A DNA stretch of 39,094 nt, taken from assembly GCA_028066695.1 (NCBI GenBank), contig JALCBG010000019.1:1-39094 (forward strand), written 5' to 3'. The translations under genes and the position numbers were made by a program. The notes under the pieces were generated by a model. It made no database searches, had not been told where the DNA came from, and saw nothing but the letters and a program-made list of their open reading frames with translations. This DNA is from Gammaproteobacteria bacterium (GTDB lineage: Bacteria; Pseudomonadota; Gammaproteobacteria; Arenicellales; Poriferihabitantaceae). This document shows positions 3,427 to 39,094 of the stretch, piece after piece (position 1 is the stretch's first letter; the number at the start of each line of letters is the position of its first letter).

Positions 3427-6400
3427 TTACCCCCCCGGCAGCAGCCGCGTGATGTTCGCTTCCACTTTGGCGCGTTCGGCCTCGTCGGTGATGGAGAAGC
3501 CGGCGAAAAGTTCGTCGCCGCGCAAGCCGAAGATGTGGCGGGCGATGAGGATGCCGTCGTCGCCGTCGGCGTCTCCGTCGCCGTCCACATCCAGCGCGGT
3601 GGAATCCACGCCGTCTTTCAGCGCGGATTCGTGGGCGGCGACATTGCCGGCGCTTTGGCCGTGCAGCAGCGAGGCGCCGCGCACGCCGAGCAAATACCGC
3701 GCGGTGATGATGCCGTCGCGCGCGTTTGCCGCGGCTTCGGTGTCGGTGTCGGCGGTGTCCAAATCCAGGTCAAAAGAGACCAGGCGAATGTTGAACACCA
3801 GTTCGTCTTTGACCGTGTCCGGAGTGGAAGCGTCTTCGGCGGTGAAAGTCGCGGCGACGGTAACCGGCAGTTCGCTCAGCGTATACGGCACCATGCTTGC
3901 GTCGCCGCTGTTGTCCCCGGGGGTGCCGCTGAGTTGGCGGGTTTCAGAATCAAAATCCAAACCGATGAGCAGTTTGTTCAGATTGCCGTCCGGATCCGCC
4001 AGCGCGTAGGAAATCGGCGCGCTGCCGCCGCGCGCCTGCGGCAGCGTTACCGGCTGTGAAAGCGGAATGCCGAGCGCCAGCACCACTTCTTCCTGCGGTT
4101 CAACAAAGGTCAGCACGTCGGTCGGCGTGGACTCAATCGCCGCCCATGAGCCGATGCCGACGTTGTTTACCGCGGCGACTTCCACATCGTAGTTCATGTT
4201 GTTGTTCAGGCCGGTGATGGTGTAACTGGCGGCGTCAAAGGCGAGCATTTCGCCGCACATGTTGTCGTTTTCCATGTTGGTGTCGTTGCATTCGGCGTCC
4301 ACGCCGCTTGCGTTGCGCCAACTGTCGACGGCGCCGTCGCGCTGCCAGCGAATGCGGTATTCGGTGATGTCGTTGCGCGCCAGCGGAGTCCAACTTATGC
4401 GCAGCCCCTCGTTGATCGGGCGCGCCGCCAGATCTTCCACCGTCGGCGGAAGCGCGCGTTCCACTATCACTTCCAGCGGCGAGCGCACCGTGCCCGAGGC
4501 GGCGCCGCGCGCGCCGAGCAGATCCACCGCGCGGTAGAACAGCGATTTTGTTTCGGCGGTGGTCGGCGTGCCGGTCAGCATGCGGGTTTCGCCGTCAAAC
4601 TCCAGTCCGGCCGGCAACTCGCCTTCCAGCACATAGGTATACGGCGCGAAGCCGAGCGTCAGCGCCGGAAGTTCGGCGCGCAACGCGGTGTTGATGGTCA
4701 GCGTCATCGCGGCCGGCGCGGCTTCGGACAGCACCGGCGGCGGCGCCAGCGACAGCGGAAACTCATAGGAACTTTCGCGCGGCGGCCGCGCCGAGTCGCG
4801 CACTTTGTAGGTGAGTTTGATTTCGGTCAATTCCGAAACGGTCGGCGGTCCGTCCGGAGCGGCCGCGGTTGCCAGCCGGCGCGTATTCGGAGTGTAGGCC
4901 AGGTAGGTCGGCACGCCTTCCAGCAAATGCGAGACGCGCCCGACCGCGCCGTAGGCGCGCGGCAGCACGACTTCCGAGGCGACATTTCCGTCGGCGTGAA
5001 AGCGCACCCGCGGTTGAATCGGCGTCAGCAGCGGAAGCATGGCGCGGGTCACGGTGACCTGGTAGGCGCGCGTGGTTTCGCCGTCGTCGGCGGTGACCAC
5101 CACTGCAAAGACATTTTCGCCGGACGACAGCGTGAAGTCGCGCGAGGCGATGTTGTTGCGCCCCATCCAGCGTTGTCCGCCGGTTTTGCCGATGGTGAAA
5201 CTCGCGAACTGCCCTTTCGCCTCGGCGGTGAAGCGCATGCGCTCCACTTCGCTGCCGACTTCCATCGTGTATTCGGTGGTTTCCGCGTCAAAGTTCGGCG
5301 AGATCGTTCCGGTGGAGGGGCGCATCGAGAGCAGCGCGGTTTCGGCGCTGCGCCGCGGCGTCGCCGAGACCGAGGCGGTCCATTCGCTGACTGCGCCGGA
5401 GGCGCCCCGGTGCATCGCGGCAACCTGCACTTCGTATTCGGTGTCAAGTTCCAGCGGACCTATCAGGCCCTCGGTCAATGCCACCGAGCCCAGCGCCACG
5501 CCGTCCTCGCCGCCCGGCCCCTCCCAGGTGTTGTCGGAGCCGCCTTTGACATCGTCGTCGTCGGACCAGCGCACACGGTAGTTGCCAATCCTTTCGCCGC
5601 CGGCGCGCTCGGGCGCCTGCCAGTTCACCTTGAGTTTTCGGCCTTCGGCCTGGGTAACGCTCAGAAAGCGCGGTATGCCGGGCAGCGTCACAGGCACGCT
5701 CGCGGCGTTGGCGGCAAGGGTGCTTTCCTGCGCGATGCGCGACCACTCGCTGTCGCCGATGCCGTTGCTTGCCCGAACTTGCGCATCGTATTTGGTTGTG
5801 CCGGCCAGTCCGCTGTAAATGTATTCGGTCGGGGCCGGGGTTCCGGTGATGGTGACGGGAGCCTCCCATGCGCCGGCGGCGGTGTCGCCGACCGCGGAGG
5901 TGCGAACACGCACATCATAGCCGGAGATTCCGTCGCCCCTTTCAAACGGCTTGCTCCACTGCACCAGCAGAGAGGGAACCGTGCCGGGTCGCTGAGTAAG
6001 GATCAGATCCTGCGGGGCTTCGGGTGTGGTCGCGAGGGTGATCTCCCAGGCCGAGTAGTCACTTCGGCCGCCGGGCCCTTCCGCGGCGAGTTGCACGCTG
6101 TAGAATGCGCCGTATTGCAGCGCGCCGGCCGGTATCGTGTAGGCGCGCGCGGTGGCAGGCAGGCGAACGCCGTCTTCGCCGCCTTCGTTGGTAAATTCGC
6201 CGTTGGGAAGAACCCGCCAGCGCACCCGGTAGTTGCTGATTTGCGCCTTCGCGGCATTGGGCGGCTGAGTCCAGGTCAGGTCAAAGTTGGCGTCGCCGCC
6301 GAATGCAACCGCAAAATTGCCGGGGAAATTGGCCGGCGGAATCAGTTCCGGCGTGGTCGGCTGCGGCGGAGTGGTTGTGGCGGTCGCCGACCAGACGCCC

Positions 6401-8148
6401 GATCCGCTGCTGTTGCGCGCGCGAATGCGCACCGTGTATTCGGTGCCGGGGGTGATGGTCAGCCCGGAGGCGGTGCTGTTGTCAAACACCAGCGGGCTTC
6501 CGGTGGAAGCCGCCCACATGTCGCTTTGCTTGACGCCGGGGATGTTGTAAGTCCCGGTGTGCGTGTTGCCGCTTTCGGTGAGTTCCCACTCGTATTGAAA
6601 AATGGTGGAGCCGCCGTCGTATGTCGGCGGAAACCACCGCAGCGTCATGGTATTGTGCGTGGAAGTGAAGGAAGTGAGGCGCGGCGCCCCCTCCGGCACC
6701 ACGGTGCGCGGCCGCGCCGAGGTGGTAAGACTGTTGGACCAGTCTCCGGTTTTGGCTTCGTTGAAAGCGCGCACCTGCGTTTGCGTGCCGCGCTCGGTCG
6801 GCAAATCGGTTACCAGAAAACTGTGCGCCAGGCGCACGCTGCGGCCGTCCGCGCTGCGCTCGGCGCGCGCGCCCGGATTGAGATAGGCGCCGGACGGCAG
6901 GCCGAGGCGCGGCGGATCAAATACGCGGAATTCATAGCCGAGAATTTCCAGCGCCGGATCGGCCGGCGGCGTGAAGTGAAACATGACCTGGCGGTTGCGC
7001 TGCTGCGCGAACTGCAGGGTCGGCGCGCCCGGCGCGTCCTGCGACTGGCCCCTGGAGCCGGCGGTGGATTCCGCCGTGTTGGACCACTCGGACTGCAGGT
7101 TTTGCGCGTTCACCACGCGCATTTGGTAGCGGACGACATGCCGGCCGTCAATGCCGGTGATGGTCAGCGAGTTGCCGCCCTGAATGCGAATAAAAGTGCC
7201 GTCCGCGCCGCCGCCGCCGCTGTGCCAGTTGGCGGTGTCCGCGACGCTCAGGCCGGGGCCGGAGACCAGCCGCCAGCGGTAGACCACGCCGATGATCGGC
7301 GCGCCGCCGTTGTTGGCGAGCGTCCAGTTCAGCAGCATTTTGTTCAGGCGCGGCTGCAAACTCATCACCGGCGTCGCCGGATTGGTGTAGGGCATGCTCT
7401 CCACCGAATCCGACCATTCGCCGAGTCCGCGGCGGTTGTAGCCGGCGATTTGCACCGCGTAGGTCTGCCCGTTGGTCAGACCGGAGATGACGTGGTCGCG
7501 GCGGTCGGCGATGCTGACTCCCGCGGAGGCCGGAATGCGCACGCCGAATTCGCCGCCCGGATTGATCCAGTCGGTGGAGCCGGCGCCGCGCGCCCAGCGC
7601 ACCGCGTAACCATCCGGCTGCTGCTGCGTGGCGCTGGAGGTGAAGCCGCCGAGCCAGTTGACCTCAATTTTGCCGTTCATCGGTTTCAGGTGCAGGCCGC
7701 TCACTCGAGGCGGCGTGCCCACGCCGGTGTTTGCGCGAATCGCGGTTCCGCTCCACCGGGTGACCTCGGCGCCGGACACCATTTTGGACGAGCCGAGTTC
7801 AATGTCGTATCCGGTGTTGGGAATGAGTTGCGCCAGGCGAATGCCGGTCGCCGCGGTTCCGCCCGGCACCACCAAGCCGTTGATTCCGCCCGGGTTGAGC
7901 CAGGTGCCCGCGCCCGGCGTGGTCCAGCGAATGCGGTAGTGCAAAAGTTGTCCGGCGTTGGCCGCCGGCGTCCACGCCCAGGTCAGCGTGGTGAGGTCGG
8001 CGCTCCATACGACCGCGCTCGGCAAATCGGCCGCGGCGGCGTTTTGCGCGCGCGCGGCCGGCGAGGCCGCAAACGCGGCAAGAAATCCGGCGGCAAGCAG
8101 CGCGGCAAGTTTCGCGGTGATTTTCATGTTTGCGCGGGCGGGTTTCAT
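3427..8148 (-). CDS. Giant secreted FN3/cadherin-like/putative-Ig protein with dockerin-like C-terminus (1573 aa)
   Basis: The Sec signal peptide is residues 1-35 (MKPARANMKITAKLAALLAA, cleavage near ARAQ). About eight FN3 modules follow (residues 36-930), with FN3 patterns such as GLTNGQTYAVQIAGYNRRG. A cadherin-like beta-sandwich module (about 934-1034) has the typical ISPNFDAETTEYTMEV and ends TRAYQVTVTRA. Putative-Ig (He_PIG-like) modules at about 1035-1225 show GLEFDGETRMLTGTP. Then come a ninth FN3 (1230-1345), another putative-Ig module, and a dockerin-like pair (1459-1573): DGIITARYLLGVRG and DVDGDGDADGDDGILIARHI. The start ATG overlaps the TGA of the upstream paralogue (ATGA), which supports translational coupling; a second in-frame ATG at 8127 is an alternative. 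There is no sortase motif or transmembrane tail. It is probably an extracellular or surface binding protein; the ligand is unknown. Confidence 0.9.
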   Translation of the reverse strand: MKPARANMKITAKLAALLAAGFLAAFAASPAARAQNAAAADLPSAVVWSADLTTLTWAWTPAANAGQLLHYRIRWTTPGAGTWLNPGGINGLVVPGGTAATGIRLAQLIPNTGYDIELGSSKMVSGAEVTRWSGTAIRANTGVGTPPRVSGLHLKPMNGKIEVNWLGGFTSSATQQQPDGYAVRWARGAGSTDWINPGGEFGVRIPASAGVSIADRRDHVISGLTNGQTYAVQIAGYNRRGLGEWSDSVESMPYTNPATPVMSLQPRLNKMLLNWTLANNGGAPIIGVVYRWRLVSGPGLSVADTANWHSGGGGADGTFIRIQGGNSLTITGIDGRHVVRYQMRVVNAQNLQSEWSNTAESTAGSRGQSQDAPGAPTLQFAQQRNRQVMFHFTPPADPALEILGYEFRVFDPPRLGLPSGAYLNPGARAERSADGRSVRLAHSFLVTDLPTERGTQTQVRAFNEAKTGDWSNSLTTSARPRTVVPEGAPRLTSFTSTHNTMTLRWFPPTYDGGSTIFQYEWELTESGNTHTGTYNIPGVKQSDMWAASTGSPLVFDNSTASGLTITPGTEYTVRIRARNSSGSGVWSATATTTPPQPTTPELIPPANFPGNFAVAFGGDANFDLTWTQPPNAAKAQISNYRVRWRVLPNGEFTNEGGEDGVRLPATARAYTIPAGALQYGAFYSVQLAAEGPGGRSDYSAWEITLATTPEAPQDLILTQRPGTVPSLLVQWSKPFERGDGISGYDVRVRTSAVGDTAAGAWEAPVTITGTPAPTEYIYSGLAGTTKYDAQVRASNGIGDSEWSRIAQESTLAANAASVPVTLPGIPRFLSVTQAEGRKLKVNWQAPERAGGERIGNYRVRWSDDDDVKGGSDNTWEGPGGEDGVALGSVALTEGLIGPLELDTEYEVQVAAMHRGASGAVSEWTASVSATPRRSAETALLSMRPSTGTISPNFDAETTEYTMEVGSEVERMRFTAEAKGQFASFTIGKTGGQRWMGRNNIASRDFTLSSGENVFAVVVTADDGETTRAYQVTVTRAMLPLLTPIQPRVRFHADGNVASEVVLPRAYGAVGRVSHLLEGVPTYLAYTPNTRRLATAAAPDGPPTVSELTEIKLTYKVRDSARPPRESSYEFPLSLAPPPVLSEAAPAAMTLTINTALRAELPALTLGFAPYTYVLEGELPAGLEFDGETRMLTGTPTTAETKSLFYRAVDLLGARGAASGTVRSPLEVIVERALPPTVEDLAARPINEGLRISWTPLARNDITEYRIRWQRDGAVDSWRNASGVDAECNDTNMENDNMCGEMLAFDAASYTITGLNNNMNYDVEVAAVNNVGIGSWAAIESTPTDVLTFVEPQEEVVLALGIPLSQPVTLPQARGGSAPISYALADPDGNLNKLLIGLDFDSETRQLSGTPGDNSGDASMVPYTLSELPVTVAATFTAEDASTPDTVKDELVFNIRLVSFDLDLDTADTDTEAAANARDGIITARYLLGVRGASLLHGQSAGNVAAHESALKDGVDSTALDVDGDGDADGDDGILIARHIFGLRGDELFAGFSITDEAERAKVEANITRLLPGG

Positions 8149-11100
8149 GGCGTCAGCGCCTCCAGATGCGTCATGGCCGCGGTGCGCTCATCGGCGCCGG
8201 TGAGAAAGCCGCCGAAAAGTTCGTCTCCGCGCAAACCGAGCAGGTATCTGGCGATGAGGATGCCGTCGTCGCCGTCGGAATCGCCGTCGCCGTCCACATC
8301 CAGCGCGTTGGAATCCATGCCCTCTTTCAGCGTCGCTTCGTGCGCGGTGACATCGCCGCCGCTCTGCCCCTGCAGCAGCGAGGCGCCGCGCACGCCGAGC
8401 AAATACCGCGCGGTGATGATGCCGTCCTGCGCGGTCGCCACGGCCTCGGCGTCGTTGTGGGCGGCGTCCAAATCCAGGTCAAAGGCGACGATGCGAATGG
8501 TGAATTCCAGTTGGTCGGTTACCGGAGTGGCCGCGCTGTCGGTGGCGACATAAGTGGTCGCCACATCAAGCGGAAACACCAGCGTGCCGCCGCTGTTGTC
8601 GGTGATCGTGCCGTGTATCTCGCGGGTGCTGCCGTCAAAATTCAGCCCGGCAAGACCGGTGGAATCGGCCGTTATCGTATACGTGACATCGCCTTCGCCA
8701 TGCTCCACCGCCGGCAGCGTCACCCGCGGGCGAATCGGCACATCCAGCGCAACGACCAAATCTTCCTGCGTCGCGGCAAACGCCAGCACCTCGCTCGGCG
8801 TGGCCGTGACTTCGGCCGACCATTCGCCGGGGCCGAGGTTATTTTCCGCGGCGATTTGCACATCGTAGGCGGTGTTGTTGGTCAGGCCGGTGACGGTGTA
8901 GTTGGTTTCGGTGAAGCCGCCGGTGGAGACGCCGTTGTCGTCGGCGCCGTTCCACGCGCCGGCGGCGACATCGTCGGCGGTGCCGGCGATGCCGTCGGCG
9001 CCGTTGGTGGTCGCGGTGCGCCAGCGCGCGCGGTAGTTGGCCAGATCCAGGCGCTCCAGCGCGGTCCAACTCAGGCGCAATCGCCGGTCGGCCGGGTTGG
9101 CGGCCAGCCCTTCCACCTGCTGCGGAAGCGCGGTGTCCACCGACACTTCCACGTCGGCCTGTAGCGCGCCCGAGGCCGTGCCGCGCGCGCCGAGCAGGTC
9201 AAAGCCGCGGTAGTTCAGCGATTTGACCTCGGCGGCGGCCGGCGTGCCGGTCAGCATGCGGGTTTCGGTGTCAAACTCCAGGCCGTCCGGCAACTCGCCC
9301 TCCAGCACATAGGTATACGGTTCAAAGCCGCCCTCCAGCGCCGGAAATTCCACGCTCACCGCGGTGTTAATGGTCAGCGTCATTTTTGCCGGCGCCGCTT
9401 CGGAAAAAATCGGCGGCGGCGCCAGCGTCAGCGAAACCGGCTGCGTCACTTCGCGCGGCGGGCGCGCCGAGTCGCGCACCGTGTAGACCATGCTGACTTC
9501 CTCGGTCTCGGTGACCATCGGCGGCTCGGCCGGGTCGGTGGACAGGGTGCGGGTCGCCGCGTTGTATGCGAGATAGGTCGGCACGCCGGTGAGCAGATGC
9601 GAAGCGCGCCCGATCGCGCCGTATGCGCGCGGCAGCACCACTTCGGACTGCAGCGCGCCGTCGGCGTGAAAGCGCACCGGCGCCTGCACCTGCGTCAGCA
9701 GCGGCAGCGCGGCGCGGGTGATGGTGACGCGGTAGGTTTGCGTGTCCTCGCCGTTGTCGGCGGTGATGATGACATCAAAGACATTTTCGCCGACCGCCAG
9801 CGGAAACTCGCGCGACGGCGTGTTGTCGCGCCCAACCCAGCGTTGTCCGCCGCTTTTGCCGATGGTGAAACTCGCGAACTCGTCCTTGGCGGTCGCGGTG
9901 ATGCGCAGGCGCTCCACATGGTTGTCGACCGAGGCCGCATAGGCGCTCAACTCCGAATCAAACCCGGGGGAAATTCTTCCGTCGGAAAGACGCAGCCCGA
10001 TCAGCGCGGTTTCGGCGCTGCGCCGCGGCACCGCCGAGACCGAGGTGGTCCATTCGCTGAACGCGCCGGCCGCGCCGCCGCCGACGATCTGTTCGGCCGC
10101 GATTTGCACTTCGTATTCGGCGCCGACCGTCAGCGGCCCGAGCAGGTATTCGGTCGCCTGCCGCGAGGTGATGGCGGTGCCGTCCGCGCCGCCGGGCCCC
10201 TCCCAGGTGTTGTCGGAGCCGTTTTTGACATCGTCGTCGTCGGACCAGCGCAACCGGTAGCCGCTCAGCGCGCGGCCGTTGGTGCGCTCCGGCGCCCGCC
10301 AGTCCACCTTGAGTTTTCTGCCTTCGGCCGGGGTAACGCTCAGAAAGCGCGGCAACGGCGGCGCGGAATGCGCGCTGTTGGAGGTGGTTTCGCCGGAGGT
10401 TTCCGAATACGGGCCTTCCGTGCCGGGAATGGCGGCGCCGTATATCACGGTGACGCGCACATTGTATTGCACATTTGCCTGCAGTCCCGACAAAATATGA
10501 CTGGTGGTATCCGGCCGGCCGCTGGTGGTATGGGCGGTGGTCCAGCCGGTGGAGCCGGACCTTTGGCGCTGCACCCGGTAGCGCAGAAAGTTGCTGCCGT
10601 TGAAATCGGGCCGAGTCCAGTGCACATCAATTCGGGTGGCGCTGACGCGCGTCAGCGAGACATCCTGCGGAGCGTCCGGCGGCGCCTCCAAAAAGACCTC
10701 GGTGCTGACCCAGTTGCTGCGGCCGTTGGCGCCGACCACGGCGATATCCAGGCGGTAACGCCGGCCGTATGGCAGATCGGCGCCGGCCTCGGTGGTGTAG
10801 GCGTTTCGGGCGGAATCCACGCGAACGCCGTCGGCGCCGCCTTCGTTGAGCCACTCGGGGAAAAACCCCTGGCGCTTCCAGCGCAGCAGGTAATGGCTGA
10901 TTTGCGCCTCGGCGGCGTTTGCCGGCGGCTGCCAGGCCATGCGAATGTTGTGGTCGCTCGGCGTGGCGTTGGTTGCGGTGAAGGAATTCACCACTCCGGG
11001 CGCCGGCACCGGCGGCGCCGGCGTCGGCGGCTGCGGCGCGGTGACCTTGGCGTTCGCCGACCAACTGCTGTATCCGGTGCTGTTGCGCGCGCGAATGCGC

Positions 11101-12815
11101 ACCGTGTATTCGGTGCCGGGGGTGATGGTCAGCCCGGTGGCGGTGCTGTTGTCAAATACGAACGGACTTCCGGTGAAAGCGGCCCACTCTTCGCCGCGGC
11201 TGACGCCGGGGATGTCGTAATCCCCGCTGAATTCCCAGTCGGCGTCGGCGTCGTTGGAGAGTTGCCATTGGTATTGCCAAATGGTGGAGCCGCCGTCGTA
11301 TTTCGGCGGAAACCACCGCACCGTCATGGTGTTGTGCGTCGCCGTGAAGGAAGTGATGCGCGGCGGCCCGCCTTCCGGCGCCACGGTGCGATCGCGCGCG
11401 GCAGTGTTAAGAGAGTCGGACCATTCGCCGACGCCGGCTTCGTTGAAAGCGCGCAACTGCGTGTCGGTGCCGCGATTGGTCGGCAATGAGGTCACCAGAA
11501 AACTGTGCGCTTCGCGCACGCTGCGGCCGTCCGCGCTCAAAGTGGCGCGGGCGCCCCCATTGAGATAGCGCCCGTTTACTTCGATGCCCATCTTCGGTTG
11601 CCACACGCGGAATTCGTAGCCGAGAACTTCCAGCGCCGGCTTGGGATTCGGCGGAGTGAAGTGAAACATGACCTTGCCGCCGCGCTGCTGCGCGAATTGC
11701 AGGGTCGGTTTGCCCGGCTTGGCCTGCGACTGGCCGCGGGAGCCGGCGCTGGACTGCACTGCGTTGGACCAATCGGACTGCAGGTTGCGGGCGTTGACCA
11801 CGCGCAGTTGGTATAGAGTGGTGTGGTTGGCGTTAATGCCGGTAATGGTCAGCGAGTTGCCGCCCTGTATGCGCACAAAGGTGCCGTCCGAGCCGCCGGC
11901 GTTGCTGTGCCAATCCATGTCAAGGGAGCCGAGCCCGGCGCCGGCGGTCCACCGCCAGCGGTAGACCACGCCGACTATCGGCGAGCCGCCGTTGTCGGCG
12001 AGCGTCCATTTCAACGAGACTTTGTTTTGGCGCGGCTCCACCGTTATCACCGGCGCCGCCGGATTGGTGTAAGGCGCGGTTTCCAACGCATCCGACCACT
12101 CGCCGACGCCGCGGCGGTTGTAGCCGGCGACCTGCACAACATATGTCTGCCCGTTGGTCAGGCCGGTGATGTTGTGATCGCGGCGGTTGGCGATGGCGAT
12201 TCCGGCCGAGGCCGGCACGCGAAAGCCGAATTCGCCGCCCGGGTTGATCCAGTCGGTGGAGCCGGCGCCGCGCGCCCAGCGCACCGCGTAACCGGTCGGT
12301 TGCTGCTGCGTCGCGCTGGAAACAAAACCGCTGAGCCAGTTGACTTCAATGGCGCCGTTGCTCGGTTTCAGGTGCACGCCGCTCACTTTGGGCGGCGCGC
12401 CCAGCCCGGTGTTGACGCGCAGCGCGACTCCGCTCCATCGGGTGACGACCGCGCCGCTGACCATCTTGTCCGAGCCGATTTCAAAATTGTAGCCCTTGTT
12501 GGGCACAAGCCCGGTGACGCGAATGCCGGTGGCGGCGCCGCCGCCGGGAACCGCCAGCCCGGTGTTCGTGCCCGGATTGAGCCACGAGCCGGTGCCCGGC
12601 AGCGTCCAGCGAATGCGGTATCGCAGAATATTCGCGGCGTTGTTCGCCGGCGCCCAGTAGGCGGTGACGGTGCTGTGATCGACGCTCCATACGATGTTGC
12701 GCGGCAAATCAGCGGCGGCGGCGTTTTGCGCCTGCGCGACCGGAGCGGCGGCAAGCGAAGTCAGCAACAGTGCCGCTTTTGCGACGAATCCAAGGGAGGT
12801 TCGTTTGGCGGACAC
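8145..12815 (-). CDS. Giant secreted FN3/cadherin-like/putative-Ig protein with dockerin-like C-terminus (1556 aa)
   Basis: A paralogue of the next gene downstream, with the same module order: signal peptide, about eight FN3, cadherin-like (ISPGFDSELSAYAASV), putative-Ig modules (GLEFDTETRMLTGTP), FN3, putative-Ig, dockerin-like pair (DGIITARYLLGVRG; DVDGDGDSDGDDGILIARYL). I chose the GTG at 12815, giving VSAKRTSLGFVAKAALLLTS and a signal peptide cleaved near AQAQ. The frame stays open to a TTG at 13049, but a good promoter (12862-12890) and a tandem array lie inside that extension, so the longer start is unlikely. No Shine-Dalgarno sequence is visible before the GTG. The stop overlaps the next ATG. 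Predicted role: exported scaffold or adhesin-like protein; partner unknown. The protein has strong similarity to its neighbour in all modules, so it arose by tandem duplication. Confidence 0.9.
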   Translation of the reverse strand: MSAKRTSLGFVAKAALLLTSLAAAPVAQAQNAAAADLPRNIVWSVDHSTVTAYWAPANNAANILRYRIRWTLPGTGSWLNPGTNTGLAVPGGGAATGIRVTGLVPNKGYNFEIGSDKMVSGAVVTRWSGVALRVNTGLGAPPKVSGVHLKPSNGAIEVNWLSGFVSSATQQQPTGYAVRWARGAGSTDWINPGGEFGFRVPASAGIAIANRRDHNITGLTNGQTYVVQVAGYNRRGVGEWSDALETAPYTNPAAPVITVEPRQNKVSLKWTLADNGGSPIVGVVYRWRWTAGAGLGSLDMDWHSNAGGSDGTFVRIQGGNSLTITGINANHTTLYQLRVVNARNLQSDWSNAVQSSAGSRGQSQAKPGKPTLQFAQQRGGKVMFHFTPPNPKPALEVLGYEFRVWQPKMGIEVNGRYLNGGARATLSADGRSVREAHSFLVTSLPTNRGTDTQLRAFNEAGVGEWSDSLNTAARDRTVAPEGGPPRITSFTATHNTMTVRWFPPKYDGGSTIWQYQWQLSNDADADWEFSGDYDIPGVSRGEEWAAFTGSPFVFDNSTATGLTITPGTEYTVRIRARNSTGYSSWSANAKVTAPQPPTPAPPVPAPGVVNSFTATNATPSDHNIRMAWQPPANAAEAQISHYLLRWKRQGFFPEWLNEGGADGVRVDSARNAYTTEAGADLPYGRRYRLDIAVVGANGRSNWVSTEVFLEAPPDAPQDVSLTRVSATRIDVHWTRPDFNGSNFLRYRVQRQRSGSTGWTTAHTTSGRPDTTSHILSGLQANVQYNVRVTVIYGAAIPGTEGPYSETSGETTSNSAHSAPPLPRFLSVTPAEGRKLKVDWRAPERTNGRALSGYRLRWSDDDDVKNGSDNTWEGPGGADGTAITSRQATEYLLGPLTVGAEYEVQIAAEQIVGGGAAGAFSEWTTSVSAVPRRSAETALIGLRLSDGRISPGFDSELSAYAASVDNHVERLRITATAKDEFASFTIGKSGGQRWVGRDNTPSREFPLAVGENVFDVIITADNGEDTQTYRVTITRAALPLLTQVQAPVRFHADGALQSEVVLPRAYGAIGRASHLLTGVPTYLAYNAATRTLSTDPAEPPMVTETEEVSMVYTVRDSARPPREVTQPVSLTLAPPPIFSEAAPAKMTLTINTAVSVEFPALEGGFEPYTYVLEGELPDGLEFDTETRMLTGTPAAAEVKSLNYRGFDLLGARGTASGALQADVEVSVDTALPQQVEGLAANPADRRLRLSWTALERLDLANYRARWRTATTNGADGIAGTADDVAAGAWNGADDNGVSTGGFTETNYTVTGLTNNTAYDVQIAAENNLGPGEWSAEVTATPSEVLAFAATQEDLVVALDVPIRPRVTLPAVEHGEGDVTYTITADSTGLAGLNFDGSTREIHGTITDNSGGTLVFPLDVATTYVATDSAATPVTDQLEFTIRIVAFDLDLDAAHNDAEAVATAQDGIITARYLLGVRGASLLQGQSGGDVTAHEATLKEGMDSNALDVDGDGDSDGDDGILIARYLLGLRGDELFGGFLTGADERTAAMTHLEALTP

Positions 12816-12861
12816 TTGGGGTTTTTTGCAGCGGTCGTTGGCGAATCGCAAAATTTCAGGG

Positions 12862-12890
12862 ATTAAAAACCGGGTGGCGCGGTTTGTCAA
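12862..12890 (-). promoter_or_regulatory. Sigma70-like promoter of the giant FN3 gene pair
   Basis: On the minus strand TTGACA (12890-12885), a 17-base spacer, and TTTAAT (12867-12862). Transcription would begin near 12855, about 40 nt before the GTG at 12815. An imperfect tandem array sits immediately upstream of the -35 box. Confidence 0.65.
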
Positions 12891-12900
12891 TAGTAAAAGT

Positions 12901-13011
12901 GGAAAAATCTGCGGAAAATCCCGGTGAAAAACCCTTCGCCGAAAAAGTCCGTCGGAAAGTTCGGGGAAAAAGTCGGTCAAAAACCCGCCGAAAAAAGTCG
13001 GCCGGAAAGTC
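12901..13011. repeat. Imperfect short tandem array upstream of the FN3 promoter
   Basis: On the plus strand about nine units of 11-15 bases follow the pattern GGAAAAAGTCGGYC, for example GAAAAAGTCCGTC, GGAAAAAGTCGGTC and GAAAAAAGTCGGCC. A-tracts thus recur roughly once per helical turn, which would favour curved DNA or several copies of one protein site. The array fills most of the gap between the acetoacetyl-CoA synthetase gene and the FN3 promoter; I see no gene in 12816-13077. Confidence 0.55.
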
Positions 13012-13077
13012 ACTTTTCCCCTGAGAAAACGCTTACAAAATCGGTGCAAAAACTGATGAAAACTAAGCAGAATTCCT

Positions 13078-21936: not shown

Positions 21937-24189
21937 CTACGGTTGCGGCAGCGCTTCAATTTTGGTTTTGACCGTGGCCGCCGCGGTCGCGCTCATACCC
22001 GCGGTCAATGCGTCCAAAGTTGCGCCGCTCGCGCTCGCCAGCCCGAGCAGGTAATACCGCGCGATCATCACGCCGTCGGCGACGGTGGTTCCGTTTGCGC
22101 CGTCCACATCAAAAGAGTCGGCCAGCACGCCGGCGTTGACGCGGTCGCCGATTGCGGCCGCGCCGCTCAGATTGAGTCCGGCGATCAATGCGTTGCCGCG
22201 CACGCCGGCGAGATACCTCGCAATCAGCACGCCGTCCTTCCAATCCACCGCGCCGCTTCGGTCCACATCCATGTTGAAGCCGCCGGTGGTGGCGCGCACC
22301 GGCGCGGTGTAAGTCCCGGTGCCGGCGTCGTTGCGCGCGGCCACGCGCACTTCATAGACCGCGCCGCCGGTCAGTCCGCCGAGTTCGTAGGAGGAGTGGG
22401 AGACGCCGGTCGCCACCGTGGTCCAATTGGTTGTGCCCGCCCCCTGCGAATGCTGCACCGAATATTCCTCGATGGCGTCGCCGCCGTTGGAGGCCGGCGC
22501 GTTCCACTCCAAAGAAAGCCGGCCGATGCCGGCCTGCGCGCGCAGGTCGGTCGGCACGCCGGGCGGCGTCGCCGGATTGTCGCTGGTCTCCGCGAAATCG
22601 CCGGTTCCCTCGGAATTGACCGCGGCGACTCCGATGGCATACGAGACGCCGTTTGTCAAACCGCTGATTTCGCGGCTGGTCCCGGTGGTCACGCTCTCGC
22701 CGGCCGCGCCCGACGGGTTGATGTAGGTGTCGGGAGTCGCGGCCTGCGCCCAGCGCACCCGGTATCCGCTGACATCGGCGCCGCCGTTGTTTGCCGGCGC
22801 GCTCCACGACACCGTGATTTTTCCGTCGGCGATGGCCGTGCCGAGCGACTGCGGCCGCCCCGGAACGGTGCGCGCTGTTTCGCTCTTTGAAACGAAGGAA
22901 CTGGTTCCGGCAAAGGTGTGGGAGGCGACCTGCACTTCGTAGCGGGTGCCGGCGGTCAAACCGGTGACCGTATACGGCGTGGTGCCGCGGTCGCCGGCGG
23001 CGCCTTCGGGATTGAGCCAGGCCGAGCCGCCGTCCTCCCGCCAGCGCACCAGGTATTCCAAGGCGGCGGACACGCCGCCGGTGTCGGTCGGCGGGTCCCA
23101 TTCCAGCGTCACGGAGGTTGCGGTAACCTCGGTGAAAGTAAGCGCGCTCGGCGGTCCGGGCGGTCCGAGCGGAGTTCCGCTGGTGGTTTCCCAGCGGCCG
23201 ATGACGAAACTGGTCTCGGCGGCGACATCCACCTGGTAGCGGGTGCCATTGGTCAGCCCGGTCAATTCATAACTCCGCGCGCCCGCGCCGCCGGTGATGA
23301 GTTGGCCGGTCTCGCCGGGCGGATCCACCCAGACCGGAGCGGACGCGGACGGCGCCCAGCGCACCCGGTAGTTCGTGACCACCGGAGTGTCCGCCGGGTT
23401 CGGGAATGCGCCCGGCTCCGACCATGACACCGTCAGTTTTTGGTCGCCGCGGTCCGCCACCAAATTGCGCGGCCGGTTCGGCGCGCGAAAAGTCCGGCCG
23501 GTCACCACATTGGACCAGAGGCCGGTGTCAAAGGCGTTGACCGCCGCGACCTGCACATGGTGCGTCAGGAACGAAAAGACGACAAAACTGTGGGAGCGCG
23601 CATCGGCGCCGCCGGGAATCTCCTCGCCCGAACTGCCGATGCTGTTGGTGAAAACACTCGGGTCGTCGGACAGCGCGTGGCGGTATCTGTAGCCGGTGAT
23701 CGGGCTGCCGGAATCGCTGCTCGGCGGACTCCAGTTTATTTCCAATTCCTGGTCAACGGAATCGGAGGTGATCGAGTTCAGCGTCGGCGCGCCCGGACCG
23801 AAGCCGAAATACACGGTGTAGGATTTCGGGTTGTCGCCGATGGTGGTGATGGTGACCGTCAGCGGCAGTGTAAAGGCATTGTTTTTCCTTACGATTTCAT
23901 GGGTGGTTCCTCCGCCGGTGGTTTGATGCACCGGCGTTACCGTGGCTGCTATGTCGGTGGTGGCCCACAGAGCATCAACCGTGCGCGGCGGCGCCGCCCA
24001 GTAGGTATAGACGCTCGGGCTGAACACCGGCGTGGGGTCAAATCCCACGGTCGGGCAACTGCCACTGGCGCAAAGCTCCGGCGCGCCGTAACGCAGAGTC
24101 AAACTGCCCAGGTTCTGCGCGCTCGCATTCCACGACGCGAAAAGCGCGGTCAATGCGGCGGCGAGGAGGAGGGATTTTTTCATGGGCAT
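21937..24189 (-). CDS. Secreted FN3 protein with dockerin-like C-terminus (750 aa)
   Basis: The signal peptide [20 protein letters not shown] ends near NASAQ. Residues about 26-130 form a beta-rich cadherin-like module ([20 protein letters not shown] ... [12 protein letters not shown]). Five FN3 modules follow, with repeated [15 protein letters not shown]-type strands and the WLNPEGAAG-type loop shared by the other FN3 proteins here. The C-terminus has two dockerin-like repeats: [20 protein letters not shown] and [20 protein letters not shown], about 55 residues apart. The ATG may be 24189 or 24183; neither has a Shine-Dalgarno sequence. The gene lies 31 bases after tRNA-Ser on the same strand with no clear promoter of its own. 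It is probably a surface or extracellular binding protein. Confidence 0.9.
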
Positions 24190-32051: not shown

Positions 32052-32055
32052 AAAA

Positions 32056-32643
32056 GTGCCGCCCGCGTCGCTGACCGCGGTCGTTCTCGCCGGCGGGCGC
32101 GCAACGCGAATGGGCGGCGCCGACAAAGGCCTGCGCGAGTTTCGTGGGCGGCCGCTGGCCGCGCAAATTTGCGAGGCAATCGCGCCGCAAGTCGCCGAAG
32201 TTTTAATCAGCGCAAACCGCAACCACGCGGAATACCGCGCATTCGGCTGCGCGGTCATTGAAGACGAATTGTCCGGAAGCCTCGGCCCCCTCGCCGGCAT
32301 GCACGCCGCATTGCGCGCGGCCGCGTATCCGTGGCTGCTCACCCTGCCCTGCGACAGCCCGTTCGTGCGTCCCGACTACGCCGCGCGCATGCTGGAAGCC
32401 GCGCGCGCGCAAAACGCCCAACTCGCGGTCGCCCACGACGGCATGCGCGCGCAGCCGGTGCATATGCTGCTGCACCGCGAATTAACCGCCGACCTGGAAA
32501 ACTTCCTGCGCGAAGGCGGCCGAAAAATAGACCAATGGCACGCGCGCCACAATTGCGCGACCGCGGATTTTTCCGGCGAGACGCGAATGTTCCTGAACGC
32601 CAACACGCCGGAAGAATGGGCCGAGATGGAGAAGATGGAGTAG
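32056..32643 (+). CDS. mobA: Molybdenum cofactor guanylyltransferase
   Basis: 195 aa from a GTG at 32056. The nucleotide-binding motif LAGGRATRMGGADKGLREF is near the N-terminus, followed by EDELSGSLGPLAGMHAALRA and LLTLPCDSPFVRPDYAARML, all standard for MobA. It joins GMP to molybdopterin to form the bis-MGD type cofactor. Its place behind tupABC suggests that the imported tungstate (or molybdate) is meant for a bis-MGD enzyme such as a formate dehydrogenase; no such enzyme is in the window. No clear ribosome site is seen, so coupling to tupC is likely. It is convergent with the FN3 gene ending at 32666. Confidence 0.93.
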   Translation: MPPASLTAVVLAGGRATRMGGADKGLREFRGRPLAAQICEAIAPQVAEVLISANRNHAEYRAFGCAVIEDELSGSLGPLAGMHAALRAAAYPWLLTLPCDSPFVRPDYAARMLEAARAQNAQLAVAHDGMRAQPVHMLLHRELTADLENFLREGGRKIDQWHARHNCATADFSGETRMFLNANTPEEWAEMEKME

Positions 32644-32659: not shown

Positions 32660-33952
32660 CGCGCGCTACTGCACCAGCGCTTCAATGTTGGAAATCACCG
32701 TCGCCTCGGCCGTGCCGCTCATGCGGGTGGTGATTCCGTCGCCGGCGCGCATGCCGAGCAGGTAGCGGGTCAGCATGATGCCGTCGGCGAGGGTTGTTCC
32801 GTTTGCGCCGTCCATGTCCAGGTCGCCGGCGGCGACCCCGGCGGCGATGTGTGCGGCGACATTGTCGGCGTTCAGGTTGGTGCCGCCCATGTCGGCGATA
32901 AGGTTTGCGCCGCGAACGCCGGCCAGGTGGCGCGCGATCAACACGCCGTCCTGCCAAGTGACCGAGGAGTCGCCGTTGATGTCCGGGTCAAACTCCGGCG
33001 TGACGCTTTGGACGGACGCGGTGAAAGGTCCCGGTCCGGCGCGGTTGCGCGCGGCGACTTGAACTTCATAAGTGGTCGCGCTTTTTACGCCGGTCAAATC
33101 GTAGGCGAGATTGGTGGAAGCGGTCGCGAGTCCGTCGTCATCGGGCAGCCAGTTGCTGCTGCCCGCGCCTTCGGAGTAGCGCACCGCGTAATCGGTCAGC
33201 GCCTCGTCTCCGGTGTTCGCCGGCGCGACCCAGGAAACCTGCAGCAGTCCGGCGCGCGTGGACACAGTTACACCTGTCGGCGCATCGGGCGGCGGCGCGA
33301 CCGGGCTGGTTTGGTGCGAGGCCCAGGCGCCCGTGCCGAGCGCATTGACCGCGGCGACTTGGATTTCATAGGTCGTGCCGTTGGTCAGGCCGCTGATTTC
33401 GTATTCGGTTTCGGTGGCGGTCGCGCCGTCGGCGTCGGGCTGCCAGTTGCTGCTGCCGGCGCCTTCGGAATGGCGGACGCGGTATCCGCTGATGGCCGCG
33501 CCGCCGTCGTCGGCCGGCGCGGCCCATGCGGGCGTAATCGTTCCGTCTCCGACGGTGGAAGTCAAATTGCGCGGCGCGCCGGGCAATTCGCCGGGGACGC
33601 TTTCGCGCGCGAATGACCAGTGCGCATCGCCGCCGCCATAGACCGCGCCGACTTGGACTTGATAGGTCGTGCCGTCGGTCAGCCCCGAGACGGTGTAACT
33701 GATTGCCGTTGCGCCGCCGGGAACATCCAGCCCAGATTCTTCACCGGTGTTCAGGTAGGAACTCGCGTCGCCGGCATCCGCCCAGCGAACTTTGTAGGCG
33801 GTATGCACAGTCCCCCCGACCTCCACCACCGGCGCGCGCCAAGTCAATGACAACTCGCCGCTGCTCGCCGCCGGCGCGGAAAGCGACGGCGCGGCGTCTC
33901 CAATCAAAAGTTCACCGGTGAAGGTGATGGTGTCGCTGCCGTTGTTGCTGCC
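32660..33952. repeat. 1.29-kb direct repeat, copy 1
   Basis: Matches 37555-38847 with no mismatch that I could find (offset 4895). It covers the last three FN3 modules, the dockerin-like pair and the stop codon of the FN3/Calx-like gene. Beyond 33952 the similarity drops at once to about 90 percent (25 differences in about 245 bases by hand count). Confidence 0.92.
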
Positions 33953-36900
33953 GGCATCGACGCTGACGAAAGTTCCTTTGCCGCCGCATGCGGCGGTGGC
34001 GGTGAGCGGAATGCTTTCAATGTCGTTGTCGTTGTCCACCACCGGCGTAATGGACAGAGTCGCATCGCCGGAGGTTTCCCGGCCGGAAATCGTGACCGCC
34101 GGCGCGGTCAGCGTTCCGGTGTAATGCGTGCTCGCCGCTGCGAGTTTGTCGCCGCGCGTGCCGGTGATTGCGCTGCTGCCGATGCTCACGGTCAGCGCGC
34201 AATTCGCGGGCGGAGCGATGCCGCCGTCTATCTCGGCGGTGATGGTCGCCGTCTGCGCGCCGCCGCCCTCGCGCACCGCGCCGGAAAGTTTGCCGGTAGT
34301 CGCGACGGTGTCGTCGTCAGTGATGCTGAAAGTGAACATTGAGTTGTCGGTTTGGTTGTAAGGACCAAACCCCCGGGCTGTGGCTGCGCTGCAGTAGTGC
34401 CCAATGGTGCGGTCCCCTTCGGCGACGTTGTCGTCGGGTTCAGCGACGCCGATGGCGCGCCCCAGATTCCAGTCGCCGGCGTCGCCGCCGGTGACTCTCT
34501 TCGCGATGGTCACTACGTCCGATACTGACCGGCCGTCCCATACCGTGTGAGTGCCGTCGTTCCCCGAGCAATTGAGTTCGGGCGTCGCGCCGGGGTCAAA
34601 TACCGCCGGGTCGAGCGGCAACGATATGCAGACCGTAACGGGGATGCCCTCAGTCACCGGCAGGGGCTCTGCAATCGGGTCGTTGTGCGTCGCCGGGCAG
34701 GTGCCGTCGGCGTCCGCCTGCGTGAGCAGAGGCGCGATATTGAGTATCAAAATTTCCGCTTCCGCAAACGCGATGTTTGTCGCGCCGGCGCAGGAAGCCG
34801 CCGCCCCGGAAAAAGGAATGCTCTTCTTGTCCTTGTCGGGGTCATCAAGGGTGGCAATGTCAAATGCGGCGGCGCCGGAGAGCGAACCCGCCGGAATGGT
34901 GATGCTCGGCGCGGTGAATGCCTCGTAGTCGGTTCCTGCCACCGCGAGCGCGTCGCCGCGCGTGTCGGTAATCGCGGCGGTGCCTTTGGTCAGCGTTACC
35001 GTGCAGTCCTCCTGCGGCGCGATGTCGCCGCCGAGCGTGGCGGTTGCGCGGACAGTGTCAAAACGATGTTCGGACATATGAGTGAAAGACAGCGTGGCGC
35101 CGGCGGCGGCTATCGTGTCGGGAGCGGTGTCGTCTTTGACGGTGACGGCAACCTCGTCGGTGAGGCCGCTGTATCCGGTCGCGGCGTCCGCGACGGCGGT
35201 GCAGGTGAGCGTGTCGGTCGGCTCCATGTTGGCGGCGAACGCGAGGTTGTTGTCCACCGCGACTATCGGGAAAGTCTGCTCGGTTTCGTGGTTCGCGGAA
35301 GTGAAAGTCCCGGTCTGCGCGGAAGTGAGCACCGCCGGGTCGGCCGCGCCCGAGCAAGTTACGGTGACATCGGCGCTTGGCGCGATTCCGTCCAATTTCA
35401 CGCAGATGTTTTCGGCGGCGCCGCCCTCTTCCAGGTCCAGTGTGGTGATAGCGTTGTCGCTGCAGTCGGTGATGACAACCTCGGCGTCAAAGATCAGCAC
35501 TTCGGTCGCGGTGAAAGTGATGTTGCTGCCGCCGCAGGAGGCGGCGGTGGCGGTGAGCGGGATGCTCTTGGTGGTGTCGGTGGCGCTGCCTGCATTGGGC
35601 GTGATGGAAACCGTCGCGCTGGCGGCGCTTTTGCCGGCCGGAATGGTGATGCTCGGCGCGGTGAAGGCGGCGTAGTCGGCGGGCGCTGCGGCCAGCGCCG
35701 CGCCCTGCGTGTTGGTGATGGCGGCTGCGCCGATGGCGGTGGTCACCGTGCAGTTCTCGCCGGGCACGATGGAACCGCCGAGCGTCGCGGTGATTTCCAC
35801 CTCCTGCGCGCCGCCGCTTTTGCCGATGCTGCCGGAGACGCCGAGCGTGGCGCCGCTGGTGGAGACCGCGTCGGCGTCGGTCACCGTAACTGCAAGCGAC
35901 TCCGCCACCCCCGAATAGGCCGAGCCGATGCTGCCGGCGGCGTTGCAGTTCAGCGCGGTCTCGGTGTTTGCGCCGAATGCCGAGTTATTGTCGGGCGCGG
36001 TCAAAGCCAGCGCTTGTCCGCGCGCATGGTTGGCCGAGGTGAATGACAACTTCGCCGGAGTGGCGGAAACCGCGGTCTCGCCCAGCGCATTTGGCGGCGC
36101 GGCGCAACTGACCGAGACGGTTTCACCCGGGTCGCTTTTCAGCGAGATGCACACGGTTTTTGCGCTGCCGGCCTCGGCCACCTCCAAACTGGTTACCGCG
36201 GCGTTGGCGGTGGCCGGGCAAGTGTTGTTGGAGTCGGGCGCGGTGAAGTTCACGCCGGCATCGGCGATCTGCAAAAAGGTTCCCTGCAATTCCTGCGTGA
36301 AGGATCCCCCCAAGTCATCCGCGGCAAGACCGTCGTAGTCTGCGATGTCGCTATCCAGGGTGAATCGGATGTTGATGCGGCCGCCGTCGCCGGAGGCCTT
36401 CGGCGTGATAGCAAATACCTCCGGATGCGTATGCGACCGCAATACCTCAAATGTGGTGTGATTGCTGGAGAAGCTGGGCACTGCGCCGTCCGTGTCAGTG
36501 TTCGCGACCAGCGGGTTTGCCGGGTCATCGCTTGCTTGCAGGATGGTTTCGTGGTGCCGGCCGGCAGTGGTGGCTTTAAAGAAAAACGCGCTGATTTCAA
36601 ACCGCTGCTCGCCGCTCGCTGATTTGGGGATGGTGTAGCCGTTGCGCGCGGCTGCAATGCAGGCGTCAAAATCGGCCGGCGGCGCGCCGACCGGGTGAAT
36701 GCAGATTGCGGCCTTGATGCCGGATTTGACCGGCACGACGCGTTCTTGCACTTCCGACCAGTCGCCGTCGCCGATGGAATTGACCGCCCGAACCTGCGCC
36801 TGATAGGTCGTGCCGGCGGTCAGGTTTTCCAGCACATATCTGCGCGCGTTTGCGCCGCCGCTCGCGTCAACGCCGCTTGCGCCACCGGTGTTGAGATAGT

Positions 36901-37518
36901 TTGCCGGTGAAGCCGCATCGGCCCAGCGCACTTTGTAGCCGGTGATGTCGCGGCCGCCGTCATGCGGCGCGCCCCAGCGCAATGCGAGGCTGTCGTCGGT
37001 GCGGGTGAACAACTCGGCGGACGGCGCCGATGGCGCAGCCGCCGCAGTTGTGCCTTGCGCCGTCGCCGACCAAGGGCTCTGAAATGCGTCCGCGTCTAAT
37101 GCTTTCATGCGCACTTGATAGGTGGTGCCCGGCGCCAAACCGATGATTTTTGTGGCGGTGGCGCCGGGACTAATGGCAAGACCGTGTTGCAAGCCGCGGA
37201 GAGACTTACGCCGGCGGGCAGTCGGTTTCTGAATGCGTCTTCGCTGGACCACTCGGTGCCAAACACGCGCACAGAGGCGGTGTAATCTCCGGGTCCCCCG
37301 CTCCCCCATGAACTCGTCGCGGTCCAAGTCAAATCCAGCGAAGTGGATTCGGCCCCGGTGGTCTGCGTGAGACTCAGGTTGGTGGGGGCGGCAACTTGCG
37401 CCCGCGCCGCGGACGACGCGCCAAACAACATCGCAAGCGCAAACGCCGCCGCAAAAAATTTCCCCGCGGTGATTTTCCCGCGAGGGGCGAAAACTTCGCT
37501 GGTCGTGGTGGGTTTCAT
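32666..37518 (-). CDS. Secreted FN3/Calx-beta-like protein with dockerin-like C-terminus, frameshifted near the N-terminus
   Basis: The reading frame from the ATG at 37518 gives a signal peptide (GKFFAAAFALAMLFGASSAA, cleavage near ARAQ) and the first half of an FN3 module, but it loses similarity near 37190 and stops at 37105. The rest of the protein continues in the frame displaced by -1 (or +2) and is open to 32666. Restored, it would be about 1615 aa: two FN3, an unrecognised module of about 170 residues, three alternating pairs of a cysteine-bearing module (VCISLKSDPGETVSVSC type) and a Calx-beta-like module (DYAAFTAPSITIPAGKSAAS type), three FN3, and a dockerin-like pair (DINGDSSVTWQDGVLIARHL; DMDGANGTTLADGIMLTRYL). 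The stop is 22 bases from convergent mobA. The frame error could be a true mutation, making the protein unexported, or an assembly error. Confidence 0.8.
37183..37195 (-). other. Probable frameshift site
   Basis: Upstream frame: LPAGVSLSAA is FN3-like, then the product turns to nonsense. Downstream frame: GLAISPGATATKIIGLAPGT resumes the FN3 pattern. The switch falls within about 13 bases here and needs one missing or two extra bases. I see no slippery heptamer. Confidence 0.65.
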
Positions 37519-37554
37519 CGGTTTTCCCCGGTTGGTTGCTGTTTGTGATTCTGG

Positions 37555-38847
37555 CGCGCGCTACTGCACCAGCGCTTCAATGTTGGAAATCACCGTCGCC
37601 TCGGCCGTGCCGCTCATGCGGGTGGTGATTCCGTCGCCGGCGCGCATGCCGAGCAGGTAGCGGGTCAGCATGATGCCGTCGGCGAGGGTTGTTCCGTTTG
37701 CGCCGTCCATGTCCAGGTCGCCGGCGGCGACCCCGGCGGCGATGTGTGCGGCGACATTGTCGGCGTTCAGGTTGGTGCCGCCCATGTCGGCGATAAGGTT
37801 TGCGCCGCGAACGCCGGCCAGGTGGCGCGCGATCAACACGCCGTCCTGCCAAGTGACCGAGGAGTCGCCGTTGATGTCCGGGTCAAACTCCGGCGTGACG
37901 CTTTGGACGGACGCGGTGAAAGGTCCCGGTCCGGCGCGGTTGCGCGCGGCGACTTGAACTTCATAAGTGGTCGCGCTTTTTACGCCGGTCAAATCGTAGG
38001 CGAGATTGGTGGAAGCGGTCGCGAGTCCGTCGTCATCGGGCAGCCAGTTGCTGCTGCCCGCGCCTTCGGAGTAGCGCACCGCGTAATCGGTCAGCGCCTC
38101 GTCTCCGGTGTTCGCCGGCGCGACCCAGGAAACCTGCAGCAGTCCGGCGCGCGTGGACACAGTTACACCTGTCGGCGCATCGGGCGGCGGCGCGACCGGG
38201 CTGGTTTGGTGCGAGGCCCAGGCGCCCGTGCCGAGCGCATTGACCGCGGCGACTTGGATTTCATAGGTCGTGCCGTTGGTCAGGCCGCTGATTTCGTATT
38301 CGGTTTCGGTGGCGGTCGCGCCGTCGGCGTCGGGCTGCCAGTTGCTGCTGCCGGCGCCTTCGGAATGGCGGACGCGGTATCCGCTGATGGCCGCGCCGCC
38401 GTCGTCGGCCGGCGCGGCCCATGCGGGCGTAATCGTTCCGTCTCCGACGGTGGAAGTCAAATTGCGCGGCGCGCCGGGCAATTCGCCGGGGACGCTTTCG
38501 CGCGCGAATGACCAGTGCGCATCGCCGCCGCCATAGACCGCGCCGACTTGGACTTGATAGGTCGTGCCGTCGGTCAGCCCCGAGACGGTGTAACTGATTG
38601 CCGTTGCGCCGCCGGGAACATCCAGCCCAGATTCTTCACCGGTGTTCAGGTAGGAACTCGCGTCGCCGGCATCCGCCCAGCGAACTTTGTAGGCGGTATG
38701 CACAGTCCCCCCGACCTCCACCACCGGCGCGCGCCAAGTCAATGACAACTCGCCGCTGCTCGCCGCCGGCGCGGAAAGCGACGGCGCGGCGTCTCCAATC
38801 AAAAGTTCACCGGTGAAGGTGATGGTGTCGCTGCCGTTGTTGCTGCC
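37555..38847. repeat. 1.29-kb direct repeat, copy 2
   Basis: Identical partner of 32660-33952, in the same orientation. It lies in the upstream tandem gene and again spans three FN3 modules plus the dockerin-like pair. Confidence 0.92.
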
Positions 38848-39094
38848 TCTACGGACGTCGACGAAAGTCCCTTTGCCGCCGCATGCGGCGGTGGCGGTGA
38901 GCGGAATGCTTTCAATGTCATTGTCGCCGTCCACCACCGGCGTAATGGACAGGGTCGCATCGCCGGAAATTTCCTCGCCGGAAATCGTGATTGCCGGCGC
39001 GGTCAGCGTGCCGGTGTAATGCGTGGTCTCCGCCGCGACTTTGTCGCCGCGCGTGCCGCTGATTGCGCTGCTGCCGATGCTTACGGTCAGCGCG
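37561..39094 (-). CDS. FN3/Calx-beta-like protein with dockerin-like C-terminus, C-terminal part (continues off right edge)
   Basis: The minus frame is open from the right edge to a TAG at 37561 (511 codons visible). It begins inside a Calx-beta-like module (SSAISGTRGDKVAAETTHYT, then PAITISGEEISGDATLSITP), followed by three FN3 modules (for example YTVSGLTDGTTYQVQVGAVY) and two dockerin-like repeats (DINGDSSVTWQDGVLIARHL; DMDGANGTTLADGIMLTRYL). Its last 425 or so codons are identical to those of the downstream gene, while the Calx-like part differs. The gene ends 42 bases before the ATG of that gene, same strand, so they are probably co-transcribed. The N-terminus is not in the window; the full protein is presumably similar in size to its neighbour. 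Confidence 0.9.
   Translation of the reverse strand, partial: ALTVSIGSSAISGTRGDKVAAETTHYTGTLTAPAITISGEEISGDATLSITPVVDGDNDIESIPLTATAACGGKGTFVDVRRGSNNGSDTITFTGELLIGDAAPSLSAPAASSGELSLTWRAPVVEVGGTVHTAYKVRWADAGDASSYLNTGEESGLDVPGGATAISYTVSGLTDGTTYQVQVGAVYGGGDAHWSFARESVPGELPGAPRNLTSTVGDGTITPAWAAPADDGGAAISGYRVRHSEGAGSSNWQPDADGATATETEYEISGLTNGTTYEIQVAAVNALGTGAWASHQTSPVAPPPDAPTGVTVSTRAGLLQVSWVAPANTGDEALTDYAVRYSEGAGSSNWLPDDDGLATASTNLAYDLTGVKSATTYEVQVAARNRAGPGPFTASVQSVTPEFDPDINGDSSVTWQDGVLIARHLAGVRGANLIADMGGTNLNADNVAAHIAAGVAAGDLDMDGANGTTLADGIMLTRYLLGMRAGDGITTRMSGTAEATVISNIEALVQ

Follow-up and report, generated by a model that had tools for sequence, protein, structure and literature searches.

Identical 3' ends in a tandem pair of FN3 genes from a metagenome: probable recurrent 3'-biased gene conversion in a lineage-specific family

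How can two neighboring genes be indistinguishable over their last 1.3 kb and then abruptly differ at about 10% of positions? The genes in question, which we call A and B, lie in tandem at the right end of the window, that is, the whole stretch of DNA that we analyzed: a metagenome contig (C46) of 39,094 nt. It comes from an assembly of 89 contigs and 2.08 Mb, with a completeness of 92% and a contamination of 0.06%. The features of the pair are:

32666..37518, minus strand: gene A (open reading frames 32666-37327 and 37105-37518, in different frames; identified with Pfam domains)
37561..39094, minus strand: gene B, 3' part only (a 510-aa open frame that runs off the contig)
32660..33952, minus strand: block copy 1, the 3' end of gene A; exact match to 37555-38847
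37555..38847, minus strand: block copy 2, the 3' end of gene B; exact match to copy 1
33008-33286, 33320-33577 and 33605-33883, minus strand: FN3 domains in copy 1 (Pfam domain matches)
37903-38181, 38215-38472 and 38500-38778, minus strand: FN3 domains in copy 2 (Pfam domain matches)
32669..32992, minus strand: tail in copy 1 (gene A, 108 aa; profile search)
37564-37887, minus strand: tail in copy 2 (gene B; profile search)
38848..39094, minus strand: diverged stretch past the edge of the block, 89.9% identical to 33953-34199; ends with the contig

The two copies of the block agree at all 1,293 positions, at an offset of 4,895 nt. Each copy holds about 23-25 amino acids of the preceding module, three FN3 domains, a dockerin-like tail, the stop codon (at 32666 in gene A and 37561 in gene B), and 6 nt more. 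On the left, identity stops 6 nt after the stop codons and is at chance level from there on. The two flanks are unrelated sequence: gene A borders on the end of a mobA-like gene, and gene B on the start region of gene A. To the right of the edge there are 25 mismatches in 247 nt, 8 of which fall within the first 22 nt, and no indels. Seven of the codon differences in this stretch are synonymous and 11 are non-synonymous. The reading frames of both genes are unbroken across the edge. Our estimate of about 10% background divergence between A and B rests on these 247 nt, as the 5' part of gene B is off the contig, and we found no continuation of it on the other contigs of the assembly.

A preliminary description of this locus had reported a 1.29-kb match without mismatches, an abrupt fall to about 90% identity, and direct repeats 4.9 kb apart, and all of these stand. 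It had also placed the edge inside a Calx-like module, but 33902-35401 has no match to Pfam Calx-beta even at E ≤ 10. The repeats had been called the 3' halves of the two genes. They are indeed the 3' end of each gene, but gene B is cut 247 nt past the edge, so a half of it cannot be defined.

Gene A begins with an ATG at 37518, and 42 nt separate this start codon from the stop codon of gene B. Its layout is a signal peptide, FN3 domains, beta-sandwich modules, three FN3 domains, and the dockerin-like tail. As assembled, gene A has a frameshift near 37,190, so that the frame with the signal peptide does not continue into the body of the protein. The site is within the first FN3 domain and outside any homopolymer, and we recognized no homopolymer or short-repeat switch there. 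The gene may be decaying or may truly vary at this site, or the assembly may be wrong there. Just beyond the 3' end of gene A, at 29810-32643, is a tungstate-type ABC transporter operon followed by the adjoining mobA-like gene (these were identified by reading their translations only).

Genes with this kind of tail also occur elsewhere in the window:

21937..24189, minus strand: third tail gene, with five FN3 domains and a tail (751 codons)
3427..8148, minus strand: tail gene of a second tandem pair
8145..13049, minus strand: its tandem partner; the 3' regions are 86% identical over 322 nt, and elsewhere the two are mostly 75-79% identical where aligned

The frames of the second pair overlap by 4 nt, and this pair is older than the A/B pair. 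The left end of the contig (window 1-1003) is also inside an FN3-type gene, and many of the contig breaks in this assembly are inside genes of the FN3/tail family.

To survey the family we used a profile built from eight tails. This genome has 47 hits to it, and 23 relatives, three congeners among them, have none. Among 369 genomes of the class, only four others match (1-5 matches each). Of the 398 phylum genomes searched, nine others do, and a single genus supplies six of these nine, with up to twelve matches per genome. (This genus is g382, with loci L205, L206, L208, L209, L210, and L213; its members could be informative on a spread of the tail by horizontal transfer.) The genome thus has about 45 large genes of secreted type with this tail. 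We extracted 45, whose frames total 167 kb or 8% of the assembly. The tail (about 107 aa) is at or near the C-terminus of the 45 extracted genes, and by a crude test, 30 of the 36 complete frames have an N-terminus that resembles a signal peptide. The number of modules differs between members. Contigs C79 and C20 join coherently into a tandem array of at least 10 tail genes, spaced mostly about 3.1 kb apart. These FN3/beta-sandwich tail genes are a lineage-specific family, and our search of the literature for FN3-dockerin families in sponge symbionts found nothing.

In the alignment of the tails, two dockerin-type motifs (of the type DxDxxGxxxxxDGxLxxRYLLG) are seen at the C-terminus. Pfam's Dockerin_1 (PF00404) matches 26 of 34 tails at E ≤ 0.1, with a best E-value of 2.7e-10; the tail of gene A scores 15.7 bits, which is under the curated cut-off of 22.9. 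The PDB sequences that are matched by the tail profile are mostly dockerins, while an NCBIfam search gave only matches far under the cut-off. A structure model of the tail is confident (pLDDT 90.6), and a fold search of the PDB with this model returned no significant match: the best dockerin folds had probabilities of at most 0.54, E of about 0.2, and TM-scores near 0.5 by target length. Like PF00404 of cellulosomal proteins, the tail has paired dockerin-type motifs at its C-terminus; it differs in that a much longer spacer separates the motifs and that an additional helix is present at the C-terminus. And unlike in the cellulosome's cohesin-dockerin system, no cohesin was found: PF00963 has no match at E ≤ 1 in this 92%-complete assembly. 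We would describe the tail as dockerin-like and do not assign it to a cohesin-dockerin system. The tail may have a role in display or binding.

A conserved gene in the window has its nearest named matches in two Gammaproteobacteria MAGs, STY4_bin_4 (81%) and SB0677_bin_2 (79%), which we take to be of sponge origin. The bacterium itself probably lives in a sponge. Another SB0677 genome has been used for sponge microbiomes (PMC12203066). Sponge symbionts are known to be enriched in eukaryotic-like domains, FN3 among them (PMC9531527). The FN3-rich proteins described here resemble these, and are from a gammaproteobacterium whose closest named matches are uncultured gammaproteobacterial MAGs. What sets them apart is their number (at least 150 FN3 matches, versus 0, 0, and 2 in the three congeners) and the C-terminal tail that they have in common.

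If recombination made the ends of A and B alike, then other members of the family might show similar tracts. The exact tracts of at least 100 nt between family members are of 1,293 nt (A/B), 637 nt (a pair on C79), 533 nt (C20), and 466 nt (a pair on C52), and of 284, 200, 196, 174, 161, 152, 147, and 116 nt. Besides A/B, five pairs have exact tracts at their 3' ends: 637 nt (C79), 466 nt (C52), 200 nt (C20), 196 nt (C11/C35), and 147 nt (C20). Tracts tend to overlap the last 330 nt of the genes. This was the case for 7 of the 12 tracts of at least 100 nt (2.3 expected by random placement, P = 0.0007) and for 11 of the 27 tracts of at least 55 nt (3.9 expected, P = 0.0002). The enrichment persisted if we used one tract per pair (P = 0.003) or if we left out A/B or the truncated genes (P = 0.002-0.009). 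It could come in part from the tail being the most conserved part of these genes, which would make both chance identity and recombination likelier there.

In codon-aligned profiles, identity at fourfold sites is 100% within the long tracts and mostly 40-95% elsewhere, so selection at the protein level alone does not explain the tracts. The sequence past the stop codon is unrelated in each pair. Two of the patterns expected of concerted evolution are seen: near-identity that includes silent sites and is bounded by diverged homologous sequence, and recurrence in other members of the family. The nearest third tail to A and B (C42:17558-17838, or L032:7559-7839) is 93% identical to them over the last 94 nt and 78% identical over 281 nt, which is a mosaic pattern. 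A peptide-pattern search of genome contigs found no relatives of the A/B 3' end, and a DNA search of 39 related genomes gave only short matches of 25-53 nt. We also note that a further gene, at the end of contig C69 (L033:3958-4012), has a near-copy of the end of the A/B tail, with 41 exact nt, and that this contig stops after exactly 55 nt.

We think it likely that recurrent 3'-biased gene conversion across the tail family explains the A/B block. Conversion of the FN3-dockerin end had been suggested in the preliminary description, and the same 3'-biased mosaic in several other pairs, along with the unrelated flanks past the stop codons, supports it well. A and B would be tandem paralogs within a family of secreted FN3/beta-sandwich proteins that had already diverged by about 10%. 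A recent homologous recombination, most simply a non-reciprocal gene conversion, would have overwritten about 1.3 kb at the 3' end of one gene with the sequence of the other. At the stop codon the tract would stop where homology itself runs out, and its other boundary would fall within the coding sequence. Such events would recur across the family, with a bias towards the 3' end, and the conserved tail is a likely seed for the pairing. If pairing is seeded by the tails, then the tails would be homogenized while the upstream modules keep diverging. We infer the mechanism, and any direction of transfer, from these patterns of identity. As the A/B copies are identical and the C42 tail is too distant, donor and recipient cannot be told apart. 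Also, given a single genome and three congeners that lack the family, conversion would look the same as other kinds of recombination.

One concern is the assembly. Exact 55-mers are common to several contig ends and flanks of N-gaps: the window's first 55 bases are C30:7551-7605 reversed, and the end of C79 (L180) and the start of C20 (L178) have a terminal 55-mer in common. These shared 55-mers indicate de Bruijn assembly with k=55 and suggest that a metaSPAdes-type program was used. Such assemblers collapse SNP-scale or strain-level bubbles, and pairs of short reads span less than 1 kb (PMC8021871). We examined 18 exact paralog tracts of at least 60 nt, and no neighboring run beyond a mismatch reached 55 nt. 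No isolated SNP with long identity on either side survives in the tracts, which is what the collapsing of bubbles would leave. "Identical" is therefore to be read as an upper limit: the A/B block could truly have any identity from about 98 to 100%. A tandem layout of the form R-x-R-y could come from a loop in the assembly if no reads span R. The gene order is plausible, and we suspect that the number of x-R units (that is, of copies of gene A) is not fixed by the assembly. At the extreme, similar 3' ends of paralogs (perhaps 98-99.9% identical) would have been merged and written twice, and neither the exact identity nor the sharp edge nor the copy number would be real; FN3 genes at both ends of the contig would fit with this. 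We consider this quite unlikely as the explanation. Merging presupposes near-identity and cannot make identity jump from about 90% to 98% or more. The four junctions differ in sequence, with the frame kept, and the pattern is also seen in the five other pairs, where some of the tracts are short enough to be spanned by read pairs. A pure assembly duplication is unlikely, and we reject it as the main explanation: the flanks differ on both sides, the frames are kept, and the pattern recurs.

Real events other than conversion could also have left a block like this one. A whole gene might have been duplicated in tandem recently, with the upstream part of one copy then altered by module exchange or fast divergence, so that the 3' ends were never converted. 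The tandem arrays of the family (as on C20 and C79), the variable number of modules, and the majority of non-synonymous differences past the edge (11 of 18 codons) would fit with this. Such a duplication should have extended beyond the stop codon, yet only 6 nt of the sequence after it are identical. Given this, and as the genes are still collinear past the edge at 90% identity with no indels, we view this scenario as unlikely. Another idea is that the repeats are there to delete, amplify, or exchange genes, giving copy-number, phase, or antigenic variation. Direct repeats of this size and spacing could cross over to leave one intact gene with the body of gene B, so that gene A would be cleanly lost or multiplied, and tails common to about 45 genes would permit exchange among many partners. 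On sequence grounds, phase or copy-number variation via these repeats is possible. With identical repeats, such recombination would alter only the copy number of gene A and leave the protein from gene B unchanged. But the frameshift in gene A does not lie at a recognizable switch, no dedicated recombinase was recognized among the translated ORFs of the window, and ordinary homologous recombination accounts for the pattern. That these repeats serve as a variation system seems very improbable to us.

Recurrent 3'-biased conversion, which we favor, has a parallel in Helicobacter pylori. According to two papers (PMC2795765 and PMC4552749, citing Pride and Blaser 2002), the 3' segments of homA/homB and babA/babB are under concerted evolution by gene conversion, and their 5' segments diverge. 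They too are paralogs for surface proteins, homogenized at the 3' end within a genome and diverging at the 5' end. There the pattern was shown with many strains; here we have one genome. The family here is also different, with about 45 genes, an unrelated kind of protein, and a dockerin-like tail.

A broader proposal, which we put forward tentatively and regard as rather doubtful, is that the roughly 45 giant FN3 proteins carry the tail as a lineage-specific tag for display or docking, with a partner other than cohesin. Recombination seeded by the tails would keep the tag uniform while it shuffles, deletes, or amplifies the exposed modules, and this would be a large-scale surface-diversification system that has not been described before.

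For families such as this one, copy number and exact identity are not readable from short-read metagenome assemblies. The dockerin-like tail, with no cohesin found in the assembly, may have some other kind of binding partner. If confirmed, our reading would mean that in a probable animal symbiont, an entire lineage-specific family of giant, adhesin-like proteins is subject to 3'-biased conversion.
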